This document shows, piece by piece, positions 51,152 through 60,295 of a stretch of DNA of 64,000 bases. Position numbers and translations under genes: made by a program. The DNA lies in NCBI RefSeq assembly GCF_021631985.1, contig NZ_CP070225.1, positions 6,448,001 to 6,512,000 of the forward strand. Direction: 5' to 3'. Within the stretch, counting starts at the first letter, position 1. Every line of letters begins with the position of its first letter. The notes beneath the pieces are model-generated. The model ran no database searches and was not told the DNA's origin. It saw only the letters and a list, made by a program, of their open reading frames with translations. This DNA comes from Sandaracinus amylolyticus (GTDB lineage Bacteria > Myxococcota_A > Polyangia > Polyangiales > Sandaracinaceae).

Positions 51152-51985
51152 TCACGCTGCGCGTGCGAAATCCCGGCGTCGCGTGGGCGCACGGCATGCT
51201 CGCGAGTACGCACTGGGCGTTGTACCCGTGATCTCGCGAAACGCGCGGCTGAAGTGACTCTGGTCGCAATATCCGATTGCGAAAGCTGCCTCGGTGCAGT
51301 CGACGCCCGAAGCGAGAAGATGTCGGGCTCGTGCAATCCGCAGGTGCGCGCGGAAGCGCAGGGGCGGCATCCCGATCTCGCGCTCGAAAATCCGGCAGAG
51401 ATGGCAGCGGTTCAGCTTCACCGAGATCGCGAGCGTGTCGAGATCGAAGTTCCGTTCGAGGTTGCTCTCGATGTATTCGCGCGTCCGCGCCACTCGACCA
51501 TCGATTCGTCCGGCGAACGGCGGCGCGGCGGTCGTTGACGCCAGGGCGCGTCGGTACACGTCGGACGCTGGCGCCCGCGCGTCGCAGACAGGGCCGCGCG
51601 CGGGCGCCCGAACTCGAACCTGCGGCGAACGGCTCGACCCGTCACCGTCCGGCGGAGAGGGAGTCCCGAAGATCACCCGGAATGCCGCGCCGCGCTCGGT
51701 GCGGACTCGCACATGCGCTGAGAGCGGCTCGACCACCAGCACCGCGCCGGCGGGCAGAGTTGCCTCGTGCTCGGCGCCGTTGATGACGTACACGCCGTCG
51801 CTTGCGGCTTGGATCACGAGGCGCTCGGGCCATATGAACGACCAGCATCGCGCGGGTGCGTCAGAGACCTCGAACACCTCGAGTGAGCAGTCGTCCCGGT
51901 CGACGCGGCTCCAGCGGACGGGCGGCACGGCTGAATCGACGACCCCAGAGCTCCGAGCGGCAATCACGAGCGGATGAGGATGCAT
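51152..51985 (-). CDS. AraC-family transcriptional regulator
   Basis: 277 residues, ATG at 51985. The C-terminal 100 residues have two HTH motifs: NFDLDTLAISVKLNRCHLCRIFEREIGMPPLRF and CTEAAFAIGYCDQSHFSRAFREITGTTPSAYSR. The N-terminal part is a cupin-like effector domain (WPERLVIQAASDGVYVINGAEHEATLPAGAVLVVEP). It probably activates the RND operon nearby (52.5-59.4 kb), but no binding site is assigned. Confidence 0.88.
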   Translation of the reverse strand: MHPHPLVIAARSSGVVDSAVPPVRWSRVDRDDCSLEVFEVSDAPARCWSFIWPERLVIQAASDGVYVINGAEHEATLPAGAVLVVEPLSAHVRVRTERGAAFRVIFGTPSPPDGDGSSRSPQVRVRAPARGPVCDARAPASDVYRRALASTTAAPPFAGRIDGRVARTREYIESNLERNFDLDTLAISVKLNRCHLCRIFEREIGMPPLRFRAHLRIARARHLLASGVDCTEAAFAIGYCDQSHFSRAFREITGTTPSAYSRACRAPTRRRDFARAA

Positions 51986-52551: not shown

Positions 52552-55500
52552 TCACTCGGCGGTCTCGGACAACCCTTTCACGCTGTCGCCGGAGCGAGCC
52601 AATCTCGTCACGCGTGCCCTCACGCGCTCGAATGCTCCCACGACCACAACGTACATCACCGGCGTGAGCGCGAGGTTCAGCACGGTCGACGCGACCATGC
52701 CGCCGAGGACCGCAGTGCCGAGCGAATGGCGCGACGCCGCGCCGGCGCCGCTCGCAATCGCCAGCGGGACCACGCCGAGCGCAAACGCGAGTGACGTCAT
52801 CAAGATCGGCCTCAGGCGCGTGACCGAGGCCTCGACCGCTGCGCGGACGAGGCTCCGCCCGTGCTCTGCGCGAAGCTGCTGGGCGAACTCGCAGATGAGG
52901 ATCGCGTTCTTGCAGGCGAGGCCGACGAGCATGAGCAGGCCGACCTGGCAGTAGACGTCGTTCGCGAGCCCGCGAGCGGCTTGCGCCCCGAGCGCTCCCA
53001 CGACCGCCGTCGGCACCGCAGTCAGGATCACGACGGGGACCACAAAGCTCTCGTATTGCGCCGCCATGACGAGGAACGCGATGAGGATTCCCAACGCCAT
53101 GAGCAGTCCGGCCTGAGACCCCGCTTCGCGCTCCTCCAGAGCGAGTCCCGACCACGCGTGTTCGAATCCACGCGGGAGTTGCGCGGATACCTCATCGAGC
53201 GCGGCGATCGCCTCGCCTGAGCTGCGACCCGGCATCGGCGCCGCGTTCACGGTTGCCGACCGGTAGAGATCGAAGTGCGAGATCACCGGCGGCGCGGTCG
53301 CCTCGCTCGTCGAGACGAGACCAGCGAGCGGCACCGCTGCCCCGCGAGTCGAGCGCGCGTAGTACTGCCCGATATCACCGGGGGACATTCGGAAACGCTC
53401 GTCCGCCTGCACGTAGACGCGATACGAGCGCTGCGCGAAGTCGAAGTCGTTCACGTAGGCTGCGCCCATGTAGACCTGCAGCGCTCCGAACGCCTCGCTC
53501 ACCGGCACGTCGAGCGAGCGCGCCCGCTCACGATCGAGCTCCACGACAAGCTGCGGATCACTGGCGCTGAACGTCGTGAACGCCGACGCGAGCTCCGGAC
53601 GCACCGTCGCCCGGCCGATCAGATCGGACGCGGCATTCGCGAGGGCATTGAGTCCGTTCCCTTCGCGATCCAGGAGTTGGTACTCGACGCCTCCGAGGTT
53701 GCCGAGCCCGCGAATGGGTGGCGGCGGAAACGATCGCACGACCGCGCCGGTGATCTCGGTGAGCTGAGCATTGACACGCGCCACGGTGGCATCCGCGCTG
53801 AGTGTCGCGTCGTCGCGCTCATCGCGCGGCCTCAGCATCGACCAGAGCACGGCGCGATTGGGGGCAGTGCCTTCGAGCGAGACTCCGACTCCGGCGAAGG
53901 TGTGATGGATCGCGGGGTCCTCGGCGAAGATGTTCTCCACCTGCTGCACGACGCCGCGCGTCGTCGCGAAGGACGCTCCCGGCGGCGCCTGGACCAGCGT
54001 GATGAAATAGCCGAGATCCTCGTTCGGCACGAAGCCGGTCGGCAGCGAACGGTACAGGACGACACCCGCCGCTGTGAGCGCCGCGAGCGCCAGCACCGAG
54101 ATCCAACGCCGGCGCATTGCGAGCTCGAGCGCTCGCTCGTAAGCCCGCGTGATCGAGTGCATCGATCGATTGAACGCGCCGAATACGCCGCGCTCCGCCT
54201 CGCCGCCTCCCTCGACGAGCAACGCCGCGAGCGCCGGTGCGAGAGTCAGGGCGTTGAACGCCGAGAGCGCCATCGAGAACGCGATCGTGAGCGCGAACTG
54301 CTGATAGAGGATCCCGGTCGTACCTGGAAAGAACGCGGGCGGCACGAATACGGCGACGAGCACGAGAGACACCGACACGACCGCGCCGAAGATCTCCTTC
54401 ACTGCGGATAGAGTCGCGGCCCGCGACCCAAGCTTGCGCTCTCGCGCGTGCCGCTCGACGTTCTCGATTACGACGATCGCGTCGTCGACGACGAGACCCG
54501 TCGCAAGCGTCAATCCGAACAGCGTGAGGCTGTTGATGGTAAACCCGGCGAGCTGCACGAAGAAGAACGTCCCGACGAGCGACACCGGGATCGTGAGCAG
54601 CGGGATCAGCGTCGTCCTCCAGCGTTGGAGGAACAAGAAGATCACGGCTACGACGAGGAGGATCGATCCGCCGAGCGTCCACACGAGCTCGTCGATCGAC
54701 TCCTCCACCGCGGTCATCGGGTCGTAGCCGATCGCCCATTCCACGCCGGGCGGGAAGCGGCTTCCCAAGCGCTCCATCTCTTCGAGCACGGCGTCGTACA
54801 CGTCCAGTGCATTCGAGCCCGGTAACTGGAACACGATGAGGCCGAGTGCATCGCGCTGCTCGAAGCGGCTCAAGGTGTCGTAGCTCTCGGCTCCGAGCTC
54901 CGCGCGCCCGACGTCGCGCAGCCGGACGAGCGTCCCGTCGGGGTCGGTTCGCAGCACGAGATCCTCGAACTGCTCCGGGGTCTCGAGACGACCGAGCGCG
55001 CGCACCGTGATCTCGAAGGTCTGAGAATCGGGCGCCGGAGAGCGCCCCACACGGCCGGCGGCGATCTGCGCATTCTGCTCGCGCAGCGCGTCGACGACTT
55101 CCCTCGGGCTCATATCGCGGGCCGCGAGCCGCGTCGGATCGAGCCAGAGCCTCATCGCGTACCGGCGCTCGCCGAAGATTCGCACTTCGCCGACTCCGTC
55201 GATCCGCTGCAGCTCCTCGCGAACGTAGCGATCGACGAAGTTGCTCAGGAACGACGGCTCGTAGAGCGATTCGTCTGCGTGGAAGCCGAGCCCCAGGACG
55301 ATCGCGTTCGAGGAACGTCGCACGTCCACGCCGATGGTCCGAACCTCCGGCGGAAGCCTGCCGAGCACCGTCGACACGCGGTTCTGCACGTCGACCGTCG
55401 CGAGGTCGAGGTCGCGCTCGCGCTCGACCGTGACCGTGATCTGCGAGACTCCGTCGGTGGTGCTCGTCGACTGCAGAGTGCGCAAGCCCGCGATCCCATT

Positions 55501-55707
55501 GATCGCCTGCTCGAGCGGCGTCGTGACCGTCTCTTCCACGGTCTGCGCCGCGGCTCCCGGATAGACGGCGGTGACCACGACCTGCGGCAACTCGAGGCCG
55601 GGGTACTGTTCGACCGGCAGCTGCGGGATCGACAACGCACCGGCCAGCGTGGTCAGGATCGCGATCACTGCGGCGAACACAGGCCGACGAACGAAGAACT
55701 CGGACAT
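52552..55707 (-). CDS. RND efflux pump inner-membrane component (HAE1 family)
   Basis: 1051 residues, ATG at 55707. Typical AcrB/MexB/TtgB layout: MSEFFVRRPVFAAVIAILTTLAG, LEQAINGIAGLRTLQSTSTTDG, and TM4 with GLTLATGLVVDDAIVVIENVERH (the Asp-Asp of proton relay). FFPGTTGILYQQFALTIAFSMALSAFNALTLAPALAALL, the periplasmic porter/docking domains, and the C-terminal TM set ending TSLAFALGVVPLAIASGAG and MVASTVLNLALTPVMY. It drives efflux with the adaptor and TolC proteins encoded upstream in the same operon. Confidence 0.97.
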   Translation of the reverse strand: MSEFFVRRPVFAAVIAILTTLAGALSIPQLPVEQYPGLELPQVVVTAVYPGAAAQTVEETVTTPLEQAINGIAGLRTLQSTSTTDGVSQITVTVERERDLDLATVDVQNRVSTVLGRLPPEVRTIGVDVRRSSNAIVLGLGFHADESLYEPSFLSNFVDRYVREELQRIDGVGEVRIFGERRYAMRLWLDPTRLAARDMSPREVVDALREQNAQIAAGRVGRSPAPDSQTFEITVRALGRLETPEQFEDLVLRTDPDGTLVRLRDVGRAELGAESYDTLSRFEQRDALGLIVFQLPGSNALDVYDAVLEEMERLGSRFPPGVEWAIGYDPMTAVEESIDELVWTLGGSILLVVAVIFLFLQRWRTTLIPLLTIPVSLVGTFFFVQLAGFTINSLTLFGLTLATGLVVDDAIVVIENVERHARERKLGSRAATLSAVKEIFGAVVSVSLVLVAVFVPPAFFPGTTGILYQQFALTIAFSMALSAFNALTLAPALAALLVEGGGEAERGVFGAFNRSMHSITRAYERALELAMRRRWISVLALAALTAAGVVLYRSLPTGFVPNEDLGYFITLVQAPPGASFATTRGVVQQVENIFAEDPAIHHTFAGVGVSLEGTAPNRAVLWSMLRPRDERDDATLSADATVARVNAQLTEITGAVVRSFPPPPIRGLGNLGGVEYQLLDREGNGLNALANAASDLIGRATVRPELASAFTTFSASDPQLVVELDRERARSLDVPVSEAFGALQVYMGAAYVNDFDFAQRSYRVYVQADERFRMSPGDIGQYYARSTRGAAVPLAGLVSTSEATAPPVISHFDLYRSATVNAAPMPGRSSGEAIAALDEVSAQLPRGFEHAWSGLALEEREAGSQAGLLMALGILIAFLVMAAQYESFVVPVVILTAVPTAVVGALGAQAARGLANDVYCQVGLLMLVGLACKNAILICEFAQQLRAEHGRSLVRAAVEASVTRLRPILMTSLAFALGVVPLAIASGAGAASRHSLGTAVLGGMVASTVLNLALTPVMYVVVVGAFERVRARVTRLARSGDSVKGLSETAE

Positions 55708-55741: not shown

Positions 55742-56977
55742 TCAGTCGGGCGCGCCGGAGCGCCCGGCGGTCGCGACCGTGTCGTCGAGCGGGCTGAGCG
55801 GGCTGCCGTGTCGGATGAGCTGGGTGCCCTCCACTGCGATCTCCTCGCCGACCTCGACGCCGCGCAGCACGAGGTAGCGGTCGCCGGCGATCGGTCCGAG
55901 CCGTACCGGACGCTGCTGCGCGGTCGGCTCTGTGGTCGTGCGATCCACGACGAACACGAACGCCTGGGCATTGAGCCGAGTGACTGCGAGGACCGGGACC
56001 ACCGGACCAGTCCTCGTGCTCCAGCGCAGACGCGCACGCAGGTACTGCCCCACCTCGAGCGTCGGCTCGCCGTCGCCCAGGGCGCACTCGACGAGGACGG
56101 TCTGCGAGCGCTCGTCGACCTGCGGTGAGACGAAGTCGATGCTCGCCTCTCGCAACACGTCTCCGGAAGCGCCCAGGATTTCGACGTGGCCTCCGACGCG
56201 CAGCAGAGGCCGCCGCTCGACGGGCACCTCCACGTGCAGCTCGCTGCCGCCGAGCCCGGTGATCGTCGCCAGCAGCGCGCCGATCTCGACGCGGTCCCCG
56301 ACCCGCACCGGGATGTCGCCCAGGCGCCCGGCAATCGGCGCGGTGACGCGGTGATAACCGAGCGCGACGCGGCCTTGCCTGACGGACGAGCGCGACTCGC
56401 GCACCTGTGACGCCGAGCTGCGGATCGCCGCTTCCTGCATGGCGATCTGCGCGTCGATCGCGGCGAGCTCGGCTTCGGCTCCGCGGAGGCTCGCCGTCGC
56501 CTCGTCGAACGCCTGGCGCGACGTAGCATCGGCGGCGAAGAGCTCTGCCACCCGGTCGCGGTGTGCGCGCGCGTACTCGAGGCGCGCGCCCGCTGCCCGA
56601 CGGCTCGCGCGGTGGAGATCCAGGGTGGCGCGAACACGGTCGAGCTCGGCACCCGCCGTGAGGGCGACCGCCTGGGCTCGGTCGACAGCGGCTTCCTGTA
56701 GCGCAGGATCGATCACCAAGAGAGGCGCGCCCGCAGCGACCGTGTCGCCGGCCCGAACGTCGATCGACACGACGCGGCCAGAGACCTGCGGCCGAACATC
56801 CGCCGCGCTACGCGAGTGCACCGTCGCGACGTACTCGTTGGACTCGTGCACTTCACCTTGCGCGACGAACGCGGTGCGTACCGGCGCCGGCGCCGGAGCG
56901 CTCGCCGCTTGCTCCCCGCCACATGCCGCGAGCGCCAGCGTCACGGCGCATGTGCCGATCCAGATTCGAGTCTCCAT
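55742..56977 (-). CDS. RND periplasmic adaptor (MFP) subunit
   Basis: 411 residues, ATG at 56977 with AGGAGAACG upstream. Signal with lipobox LALAAC. Lipoyl/beta-barrel: VRPQVSGRVVSIDVRAGDTVAAGAPLLVIDP, a coiled-coil hairpin (about 95-215, VDRAQAVALTAGAELDRVRATLDLHR), then VTAPIAGRLGDIPVRVGDRVEIGALLATI and the membrane-proximal domain (VVPVLAVTRLNAQAFVFVVD; LVLRGVEVGEEIAVEG). Anchored to the inner membrane, bridging the RND pump and TolC. The RND gene starts 34 bases after. Confidence 0.94.
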   Translation of the reverse strand: METRIWIGTCAVTLALAACGGEQAASAPAPAPVRTAFVAQGEVHESNEYVATVHSRSAADVRPQVSGRVVSIDVRAGDTVAAGAPLLVIDPALQEAAVDRAQAVALTAGAELDRVRATLDLHRASRRAAGARLEYARAHRDRVAELFAADATSRQAFDEATASLRGAEAELAAIDAQIAMQEAAIRSSASQVRESRSSVRQGRVALGYHRVTAPIAGRLGDIPVRVGDRVEIGALLATITGLGGSELHVEVPVERRPLLRVGGHVEILGASGDVLREASIDFVSPQVDERSQTVLVECALGDGEPTLEVGQYLRARLRWSTRTGPVVPVLAVTRLNAQAFVFVVDRTTTEPTAQQRPVRLGPIAGDRYLVLRGVEVGEEIAVEGTQLIRHGSPLSPLDDTVATAGRSGAPD

Positions 56978-56999: not shown

Positions 57000-59420
57000 T
57001 CAGCGCGGCCGCTCGGCGGCGCTCTGCGCAGCCGAAAGGCGCCGGAAGAAGTCGGTCCGCTGCTCGGTCGTCGAGCCGATGCTGAACTCCCGAGTCGCGT
57101 GCTCGACGGCGAGGAAGTCGCGCACGAACTCGAACCGCGCATCTGCGGCGCGCAGCGCGCTCACACGCGCCTGGGTCTGCGCGTCGACGACGCGGATCAC
57201 GTCGATCGCGCCGCGCGCGTAGGCTTCCCGAACGAGCTCGAGGCCGGCTGACGCCGCGGTCGCCGCGTCGACAGTGAGCGCAATCGACGCGAACGAAGCG
57301 CCCGCTGCATGCAACGCGGCACGGACGTCCGCCTCGATCATCTGCGCAGCCGCGGTTCGCTCTCGCTCGAGCCGGGCGATCTCGAGCGACGCCTGCTCGA
57401 TCTCACTCACCATCGCTCCGCCTTCGAGGAGGGGGAGCGAAACGACGAGACCCACCGACCAATCGAGCGCGTCAGGCACCGTGAACGGAAGCGGCTCGCC
57501 TTGCCCGCTGCCCGCGCCGTCGGTGGCGAATCGGTGCGTCAGGCCCGCGACGAGCGTCGTCGTCGGGACCCAGAGCCGTCGCTGCGCGCCAGCGTGGCGT
57601 CGCCGGGCAGCGCGGATCCGATCGTCGTAGGCGGCGAGGTCTGGTGCGTTGTCGATCGCCTCCGCGGCGAGCAGCCGCCGCAACGACGCGAATCGCTGCG
57701 GCTCCCCGAGCACGTCGGCGAGGCGATCGTCCGCCGCCATCATCGGCAGGCTCTCGAGGTCGTCATCTCGAAGAGCGAGGGGCTCCTCGAGGTCGCGCGC
57801 GAGCAAACGGTTGAGCTCGATCTCGACGCGATTGCGGAGAGCGACGGCAGCGACGACACGTCGGCGTCCCTCGGCGACCTCGATGCGCCACCGGTGGACC
57901 TCGTCCGCTCCAGCGACCCCTGCCCGGCGGCGGAGCTCGGCGACCGCGAGGTTTCCGTGGACCCGCTCGAGATTCTCGCGCTCCACGCGCTCTACGGTCG
58001 AGGCGCGGAGCACGTCGACGTAAGCGACCGCGACGGCGAGCACGAGATCGATCTCGGCGCGCTGGATGTCGTGCCGTCGAGCGTCCTGCACCGCGCCTGC
58101 CCCGTCGAACGTGGCCCACGCGTCCTCGGCATAGAGGACCTGTGAGGCGACCACCTCCCACGAGAGCTGACGCTCGGCCGGCGGCCCCGGACCTGCGGCG
58201 CGATCGGCGTCGATGAGGTCCGCGCGCGCTCCCACTCGGGCCTGAGGCAAGAGCGCCGCCCGAGCACGCTCGACCTCGCGCTGTCCGATCTCGACGCCCA
58301 AGCGCGAGCTCTGGAGCGCGAAGTTGGCGGCGATCGCGCGTTCGACTGCGTCTTCGAGGCCGACACCGGCGCCTCCGCTCGAGCGCGGGTGAAGCACCGT
58401 GCCTTCGAGCGTGAGCGCGAACGGAACACCGACGCCGATGCGGCGTGCGATTTCCCGGTCGATTGTGAGCCGTTCGCTCGGCTCGAAGACCGTTGTGAGC
58501 TCGCCGGCCGGACGCCCTTCGAGGATCGCCCGCACGTGCAGCGCCGCTGCTCGGCCACGCAGCCTTTCGATATCGGGAGGATCGAGCGTCGCGAGGGCAC
58601 CTGCGCCGGCCATCGACGAGGTTCCGACCACTGCGACGCCGCGGTCGAGCGCGGCGTCCAGGAGCGCTCGCTCCTGAGGAGCGTCGAGCCCGTACAGCCC
58701 CGCCGCGTGTAGTGCCCTGATTCCTTCGGGCAGCCAAATCGCGCCGCGCCGCGGGACCGCCACGACCACCAGCTCGCGTCCCACTCGCTGCGCGACGCCC
58801 TCGATCACGCCGGCGAGCGCGGGAGCGTGCGCGACGAGCTCGGCGTCGATCGCGACGCCCAGCGGTCCATCCGGGAGAGCGGTGGCGACACGCTCGAGGT
58901 CGCGCTCGAGCGTGAGGCCTCCGGAGAGATACGCGATGCCACGAGCGCCTGAGCGCAGGCCGTCCGAGAGCAGGCCGTGCACCTCCGGACTGAGCACGAC
59001 CGGGAGCACGAGGGTCCGACGCGACGCGCCGGCCTCCGCCGCCGCGTGCGCCGCGAGCGGGCCGTTCGCGACGACGACGTCGGCAGGCATCTCGAGCGCG
59101 GTGCGAAGCGCTCGACGAACCGAGTCGTAGTCTCCGTCGAGCTCGGGCGTGACTTCGACGATCTCGACGAGCTCCTCCGCCGAGGTCGCAGCGAGCAGCT
59201 CGGTGTGGAGTCCTTCTTCGATCGCCGCGATCCGCGACGACCGAGACTCGCTCACGATCACCACTCGACGGACGGTCGGTACCTGCGCACGAGCGATGTC
59301 CGATGCGCACGCGAGCAGCGCCGCGCAGATGACGGCGATCAAGTACCTGCCTATATCGCCCGGCGTTCCTCGCGGAGCGCGCGCGCGACGATCCATGCTC
59401 CCCGACTTGGCGTCTTTCAT
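57000..59420 (-). CDS. TolC-family outer-membrane protein with N-terminal solute-binding-like domain
   Basis: 806 residues, much longer than usual TolC (about 450). ATG at 59420. The signal ends near DIARA. Residues about 48-345 look like an ABC-type periplasmic binding protein (VRRVVIVSESRSSRIAAIEEGLHTELLAAT, PADVVVANGPLAAHAAAEAG, GARGIAYLSGGLTLERDL, LYGLDAPQERALLDAALDRGVAVVGTSSM; ABC_sub_bind/LivJ style). Residues from about 370 are a TolC/OEP: LEDAVERAIAANFALQSSRLGVEIGQREVERARAALLPQ, and VGLVVSLPLLEGGAM. It lies 22 bases before the adaptor gene. Confidence 0.88.
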   Translation of the reverse strand: MKDAKSGSMDRRARAPRGTPGDIGRYLIAVICAALLACASDIARAQVPTVRRVVIVSESRSSRIAAIEEGLHTELLAATSAEELVEIVEVTPELDGDYDSVRRALRTALEMPADVVVANGPLAAHAAAEAGASRRTLVLPVVLSPEVHGLLSDGLRSGARGIAYLSGGLTLERDLERVATALPDGPLGVAIDAELVAHAPALAGVIEGVAQRVGRELVVVAVPRRGAIWLPEGIRALHAAGLYGLDAPQERALLDAALDRGVAVVGTSSMAGAGALATLDPPDIERLRGRAAALHVRAILEGRPAGELTTVFEPSERLTIDREIARRIGVGVPFALTLEGTVLHPRSSGGAGVGLEDAVERAIAANFALQSSRLGVEIGQREVERARAALLPQARVGARADLIDADRAAGPGPPAERQLSWEVVASQVLYAEDAWATFDGAGAVQDARRHDIQRAEIDLVLAVAVAYVDVLRASTVERVERENLERVHGNLAVAELRRRAGVAGADEVHRWRIEVAEGRRRVVAAVALRNRVEIELNRLLARDLEEPLALRDDDLESLPMMAADDRLADVLGEPQRFASLRRLLAAEAIDNAPDLAAYDDRIRAARRRHAGAQRRLWVPTTTLVAGLTHRFATDGAGSGQGEPLPFTVPDALDWSVGLVVSLPLLEGGAMVSEIEQASLEIARLERERTAAAQMIEADVRAALHAAGASFASIALTVDAATAASAGLELVREAYARGAIDVIRVVDAQTQARVSALRAADARFEFVRDFLAVEHATREFSIGSTTEQRTDFFRRLSAAQSAAERPR

Positions 59421-59496: not shown

Positions 59497-60295
59497 TCAG
59501 TCGTCGGCGACGTCGGCGAAGAACTTCGCCTTCGCGGCGGTCTCGCGATGGAGCGTCACGCCGCCATCGACCACGAACTCGCCGCCATTCGCGTACGACG
59601 ACTCGTCGGACGCGAGGAAGAGCATCAGGTTCGCGATGTCCGCCGGCGTCCCGGCGCGATCCGGAAGACCCGCGCGTCTCGCGAGCGGGACGTGCCCGAA
59701 CGCCTCGTCGGACGCGACCTCGGCAGTCATCGGCGTGTGGATGAACCCGGGATGCACGGAGTTCACCCGAATACCGAAGCGACCGAGCTCGACGGCGGCG
59801 ACCTTGGTCATTCCGCGCACCGCGAACTTGCTCGCAACGTAGGCGAGCGAATGAACGTCCGAGACGATCCCGTAGATCGAAGAGACGTTGATGATTCGAT
59901 CCGCCCCTCGCCTTTCGCATCGACGGATAGGCCGCCTGCATGCCGAGAAAGACGCCGACCTGATTCACCTCGATGACCTTCCGATAAGTCTCGACGGGCA
60001 GGTCCTTCAGATAACCACCGTCGCTGATTCCGGCGTTGTTCACGAGAATGCTCAGCGGCCCGAACGTCCCCTCTGCCGTACTGACGGCGTCGCTCCACGA
60101 CGCCTTGCGCGTGACGTCGAGGTGCACGTAGGTAGCCCGCGGTCCGAGCGCCGCCGCGAGCGCCCGGCCCTCGTCGTCGAGCACGTCTCCGAGCACGATG
60201 CGCGCGCCCTCGTCGTGCATTCGCTTCGCGGCGGCGGCCCCGATTCCTCGCGCCGCACCGGAGATCAGTGCCACTCTGCCTTCCAGTCGATTCAT
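59497..60295 (-). pseudogene. SDR-family oxidoreductase, frameshifted
   Basis: ATG at 60295 with GAGGAGG upstream. RVALISGAARGIGAAAAKRMHDEGA (Rossmann GxxxGxG), ILVNNAGISDGGYLKDL and VNQVGVFLGMQAAYPSMRKARG are in one frame. INVSSIYG, LAYVASKFAVRGMTK (active Y-x-x-x-K) and VNSVHPGFIHTPMT are in the next. The shift is in a G-run (AGGGGCGG, near 59910). The rest is intact to the stop at 59497. Either a true frameshift or a sequencing/assembly error in the homopolymer. It lies upstream of the TolC gene in the same direction. Confidence 0.85.

Follow-up and report, generated by a model that had tools for sequence, protein, structure and literature searches.

A solute-binding-protein domain fused to a TolC-type exit duct in a pump operon of Sandaracinus amylolyticus and in other bacterial phyla

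Introduction

The outer-membrane factors of the TolC/OprM type (PF02321, TIGR01844) are usually treated as passive pipes that are opened by the adaptor of the pump they serve. The ABC_sub_bind family of type I solute-binding proteins (SBPs), represented by TrpX/SP1069 (3LFT), VC_1101 (3LKV) and CD0873 (6HNI), is associated with ABC importers. An aromatic amino acid is the ligand of CD0873, of VC_1101 and of SP1069, and all three hold the amino and acid groups of that ligand in a common way (PMC6816091); T108, A127, T129, D152 and N233 are the amino-acid contacts in S. suis TrpX (PMC9382623). Periplasmic modules have also been found on tripartite pumps. The lipoprotein YbjP binds E. coli TolC 3:3 beside the equatorial region (PMC13082787, PMC13095208); it is of importance in some Enterobacterales, and those who described it concluded that it is not allosteric (PMC13082787). 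In SilB a small, metal-binding CusF-like barrel is fused to the adaptor (PMC4446572).

The protein described here resembles each of these systems in part. With the TolC/OprM factors it shares the complete duct fold (Z 29.8 to 1ek9) and an operon with adaptor and pump, but an SBP domain of 300 residues stands ahead of the point where TolC starts, and the TIGR01844 score (98.5) is below the curated cut-off of 225. With the ABC_sub_bind proteins it shares the fold over the whole domain (Z 27–29) and a family profile match, but a duct takes the place of the ABC importer partner and the equivalents of the TrpX contacts are not conserved. As with YbjP, an accessory periplasmic domain would lie at the equatorial region of TolC, YbjP being, however, a separate lipoprotein of another fold; as in SilB, one component of a tripartite pump has a periplasmic binding module fused to it, here an SBP on the duct rather than a barrel on the adaptor. 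No description of an SBP–TolC fusion was found in the open-licence PMC literature, and binding-protein terms were not found in the accessible part of a review of tripartite pumps (PMC8277102); public domain databases probably display the architecture. Both halves belong to known families; what appears to be new is their combination, which is widespread and under selection.

The fusion gene and its operon

The window analysed is a stretch of 64,000 nucleotides from S. amylolyticus (contig NZ_CP070225.1), and the Sandaracinus genome carrying the fusion amounts to 10.96 Mb in two contigs. Between 57000 and 59420 the plus strand is interrupted by stops, and a single 806-residue frame, ending at 57000, occupies the minus strand, so that the coordinates and length given in the initial annotation are exact, and the motifs quoted there (VVANGPLAAHAAAEAG, GARGIAYLSGGLTL and VAVVGTSSM) are all present in this frame. 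With start sites read from the sequence and families assigned by profile matches, the features are the following.

57000–59420, minus strand: SBP–outer-membrane-factor fusion gene, 806 residues, ATG at 59420, stop at 57000–57002 (OEP PF02321, 4.1e-31)
59286–59420, minus strand: N-terminal extension and signal peptide, residues 1–45, ending in ...ALLACASDIARA/QVP, Sec/SPI-like as in relatives (read from sequence)
58386–59285, minus strand: type I SBP domain, residues 46–345, divergent ABC_sub_bind branch (AlphaFold, Foldseek, VIA-align, family profile)
58365–58385, minus strand: short linker, residues 346–352 (A340–N366 spacing of 26 in the window)
57069–58364, minus strand: TolC-type outer-membrane factor, residues 353–784, four membrane strands and long coiled-coil helices (model residue 308, which is residue 353, on 1ek9 residue 1)
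55742–56977, minus strand: periplasmic adaptor (membrane fusion protein), likely a lipoprotein (TIGR01730 1.3e-52, HlyD_D23; start METRIW..LALAAC at 56977 read from sequence)
52552–55704, minus strand: AcrB-type RND pump, 1050 residues (ACR_tran 1085 bits; TIGR00915 1176 bits)
51152–51985, minus strand: AraC-type regulator (HTH_18 5.7e-22), downstream of the RND gene

The fusion gene is the first of a tight operon, in which adaptor and RND genes follow on the same strand after gaps of 22 bp and 37 bp, respectively, in agreement with the adjacency of the three genes noted earlier. The RND protein is of the AcrB type (HAE-1), its TIGR00915 score lying above the curated cut-off of 940. The AraC-type regulator may be a further member of the operon. 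Directly upstream of the fusion, a short-chain dehydrogenase gene (59498–60295, minus strand) contains a frameshift near 59910, with the two halves reading well in different frames, and is either a pseudogene or the product of an assembly error. As for the export signal of the fusion itself, a lipoprotein signal (LLAC) was considered, and an SPI-type signal appears preferable given that the corresponding ends in relatives are SPI-like (AEAQ, ALAQ).

Structure of the two halves

Pfam recognizes only the TolC half of the whole protein, in two stretches (PF02321, 4.1e-31, 108.7 bits against a cut-off of 22). The N-terminal half of the window protein, searched alone, gave no Pfam match, PF04392 (ABC_sub_bind) included, and as a lone query reached 3LKV with an E value of only 0.062. 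Residues 46–345 were predicted by AlphaFold with a mean pLDDT of 94.9 and a pTM of 0.92 as the two alpha/beta lobes and hinge of a type I SBP; Foldseek returned 3LFT (7.4e-16), 3LKV (1.4e-15) and CD0873 as the top matches, and VIA-align gave Z values of 29.4 (to 3LKV, over 287 residues), 28.3 and 27.0 for the top three ABC_sub_bind structures, other type I proteins following at 17–18. The same family emerges from sequence once relatives are included: a profile of nine proteins retrieved 3LKV at 8.9e-13, and one of 56 relatives retrieved, from the PDB, 3LKV (6e-14), 3LFT (6e-8) and 6HNI (5e-5), all of them ABC_sub_bind proteins. PF04392 itself matches 13 of 19 relatives (best 4.7e-10), the window protein alone having no match, and a search of the window's own genome with this model found none either; in sequence, the ABC_sub_bind kinship emerged through the family alignment.

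For the whole mature protein (pLDDT 89.8), residues 308–738 of the model match residues 1–414 of E. coli TolC (1ek9) with a Z of 29.8 over 408 residues. The duct half comprises strands 348–357, 372–385, 575–589 and 607–616 and helices 387–494 and 624–730 (model numbering). Since model residue 308 falls on residue 1 of 1ek9, the SBP domain is joined exactly at the mature start of TolC, and the duct is complete. Thus, according to the prediction, a single reading frame yields a type I SBP fold and, behind it, a complete TolC-type duct. The initial annotation had read the N-terminal part as resembling a periplasmic binding protein and the second half as an outer-membrane factor, and had stated that this reading would fall if no type I fold were predicted or if the two parts were separated by an error in start site or frame. 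The model gives the type I fold, and an error is excluded by the same junction and intact two-part frame in 65 proteins with near-complete domains, drawn from 79 loci, several of them in complete chromosomes (L105, L116).

Distribution of the fusion

Full-length fusions occur in Myxococcota, Thermodesulfobacteriota, Gammaproteobacteria, Acidobacteriota, KSB1, Calditrichota and other groups. A scan of one genome collection, in which the alignment of full-length fusions served as the query (conserved stretches being wanting in the N-terminal domain alone), returned 79 loci, mostly with full-length cover, which also include Gemmatimonadota, GN15 and Ignavibacteria. The fusion is thus widespread across phyla rather than the local oddity it had seemed. 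It is present in other families of the window's order and was not found in the sampled genomes of the same genus or the same family.

Per-phylum counts were taken from match tables as strong matches to the N-terminal domain in open frames of at least about 716 residues, the fusion of each not being individually verified. On this basis the domain is found in long frames in about 20 of 377 genomes of the window's phylum, 14 of 297 of the phylum of Desulfuromonas, 15 of 274 Gammaproteobacteria and 14 of 199 of the phylum of Acanthopleuribacter. Strong matches lie almost only in frames of fusion size; weak matches, below about 125 bits, fall for the most part in frames of 310–440 residues, which are free-standing ABC_sub_bind proteins. 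The near confinement of the strong matches to long frames indicates that the N-terminal domain forms a branch reserved, for the most part, for the fusion. Exceptions were seen in Acidobacteriota, as BON-domain fusions, and in genome G912, as a 460-residue frame. In the former (L163:2548–4266, L164:1441–3096 and L165:2191–3840), a domain of the same SBP family is followed, in place of the TolC duct, by a C-terminal part with a BON domain at its end. In the latter (L166:6424–8459), the binding domain stands alone, without the duct half, and adjoins a C-terminal RND fragment; it is a broken or rearranged fusion operon. At L156, L157 and L161, paired free-standing ABC_sub_bind proteins flank a gene with an ABC ATPase domain.

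In the Delta 4 endosymbiont of Olavius algarvensis, the fusion gene contains an in-frame TAG (L097:9324–9326); the binding domain lies ahead of this codon, and reading on past it without a change of frame gives the remainder of the duct. The deltaproteobacterial symbionts of this host are known to use pyrrolysine, so the TAG may be a Pyl codon.

Pump partners

By our own count, an RND gene accompanies the fusion at 57 of the 79 loci, nearly always together with an adaptor gene, and most of the remaining loci are cut by contig ends. The gene order is fusion–adaptor–RND, or adaptor–RND–fusion in loci of the Desulfobacteraceae type. Five gammaproteobacterial loci (L108, L121, L134, L136 and L154) have, in place of an RND gene, an HlyD-type adaptor, an RbbA-type ABC protein (at L108, 1485 bits against a cut-off of 1050) and an ABC-2 permease. 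Genes for ABC importer partners, as expected for TrpX or CD0873, were not found among the neighbours, which are adaptor and RND genes or an RbbA-type exporter. The presence of the same fusion beside RND pumps and RbbA-type exporters argues that its function belongs to the duct or the periplasm and not to one pump class. In Myxococcota, loci L063, L084, L085, L086 and L099 carry two tandem fusions between divergent adaptor–RND pairs, in the order RND< MFP< FUS> FUS> MFP> RND>.

Its AcrB-type partner sets the window's fusion apart from nearly all relatives. Its RND protein is only 23–25% identical to those of the best-matching relatives, which are 49% identical among themselves (median), and only L138 has a similar one (39% identity). 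The duct groups with the fusions of Myxococcota (14 rows, support 100/95) on a long branch. The simplest reading would be that the pump partner was swapped in the window's lineage. An orthologous AcrB-type pair is present in genome G017, where the contig ends just upstream of the pair.

Selection, junction and binding cleft

Between close pairs, dN/dS of the N-terminal domain is mostly 0.06–0.25, near that of the duct half, values that are rough in view of the many dS above 1. At the level of sequence the domain is under purifying selection, from which it follows that it is kept for a function. The junction is constrained in length. Between the conserved A340, which closes the domain, and N366, in the first helix of the duct, the distance is 27 residues in 50 of the 56 proteins; five, the window's among them, have 26, and one has 28. 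The sequence in between varies, and a fixed length despite this variation points to a fixed geometry on the duct rather than to a floppy tether.

The cleft is not that of TrpX. The equivalents of the five TrpX contacts in the 56 fusions are mostly V/I/P/L, F/L/Y, V/L/I, G/S/E and R/Q, and in the window P121, V141, L143, G167 and G244, with the caveat that the mapping was by sequence profile, not by superposed coordinates, and single positions may be off by one. Binding of an amino acid in the manner of TrpX was therefore rejected as the default. The positions are alike within clades and differ between clades; being mostly hydrophobic and clade-specific, they are as expected of differing hydrophobic ligands, and a hydrophobic or aromatic ligand is possible.

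The window's own copy stands apart also in this respect. Its domain/duct identity ratio, 0.67, is the lowest of the 56 proteins; of the 26 domain positions at which at least 85% of the other proteins agree, it departs at 13 (D58E, G59S, W96G, P136T, N161G and N321D, for example), as compared with 14 of 67 in the duct; and its end branch in the tree is 1.75. By these measures it is the most eroded of the 56 and a poor representative of the family, and it may have changed its ligand or be losing its function.

A candidate ligand-responsive exit duct

In TolC-type ducts the N-terminus is situated at the periplasmic equatorial region, so that the three domains of a trimer would form a collar there. 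We tentatively favour, at somewhat short of an even chance, the view that the fusion is the exit duct of a tripartite pump with a ligand-responsive SBP collar. Its base is a fusion whose junction is conserved across phyla, which is found in pump operons, and which has a domain under selection and a link of nearly fixed length. After export, three subunits would form the duct, bearing three SBP domains as a rigid periplasmic collar beside the equatorial belt, close to the peptidoglycan and above the adaptor. The ligand, small and probably hydrophobic or aromatic, would not be an amino acid held as in TrpX; the closing of the domains around it would alter the ease of duct opening or the firmness of adaptor engagement, export thereby responding to a compound in the periplasm. 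In the window, with its AcrB-type RND pair as partner and its eroded cleft, the copy may have changed or lost its ligand. Against such a collar it may be held that the variable pocket positions would fit equally a domain that binds nothing, that the TrpX-type contacts are not conserved, that half of the conserved positions are changed in the window copy, and, by analogy, that the similarly placed YbjP was judged non-allosteric.

It is somewhat unlikely that the SBP fold has been reused as a non-binding stabilizer of the duct, or as its anchor to the peptidoglycan or the outer membrane, in the way of YbjP. The rigid junction and the lack of conservation of the amino-acid contacts would suit such a role, as would the presence of the same domain on the acidobacterial BON-domain proteins, another envelope-associated partner, and YbjP, 3:3 on E. 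coli TolC and judged non-allosteric (PMC13082787), provides a precedent. However, the complete two-lobed fold and the conserved loops (D58-G59, G120, N161, Y164, R290) are kept in most members, and the variation of the cleft from clade to clade exceeds the needs of a mere stabilizer.

It is unlikely that in the window a functional duct carries its SBP domain as a relic in decay: the low identity ratio, the excess of departures over the duct and the long end branch speak for it, but the frame is intact and the fold is still predicted at a pLDDT of 94.9, though aided by the family alignment. Capture of the exported compound in the periplasm and its transfer to the adaptor or pump, as CusF or the CusF-like domain of SilB does for metals (PMC4446572), is improbable, because, in spite of that fused-chaperone precedent and of the operon with adaptor and pump at most loci, the domain sits at the duct N-terminus (TolC residue 1), far from the RND loading sites, on a short link of fixed length, and the same domain occurs with two unrelated pump classes. 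The observation reported in the initial annotation is thus confirmed, and its interpretation partly supported: the proposal that substrate binding feeds efflux finds no support in its present form, in view of the position of the domain on the outside of the duct N-terminus, far from RND loading, of the non-conserved contacts and of the 13 departures in the window copy.

Concluding remarks

The conserved union of two familiar modules bears on how exit ducts are viewed. It can be conceived, as a speculation that we regard as rather unlikely at present, that these proteins form a widespread, so far undescribed class of ligand-gated exit ducts, in which the outer-membrane part, and not the inner-membrane pump, would sense periplasmic compounds through a rigid SBP ring and decide on opening or recruitment. 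The N-terminal domain is tractable, as it is predicted to fold on its own and occurs in cultured species such as those of Desulfoluna, Desulfosarcina and Desulfobotulus. If it binds nothing, the fusion would still be an example of the reuse of an SBP fold as a structural collar. With an SBP fold locked at a fixed distance on the duct of two unrelated pump classes, it may be the outer-membrane part itself that senses compounds or collects them.
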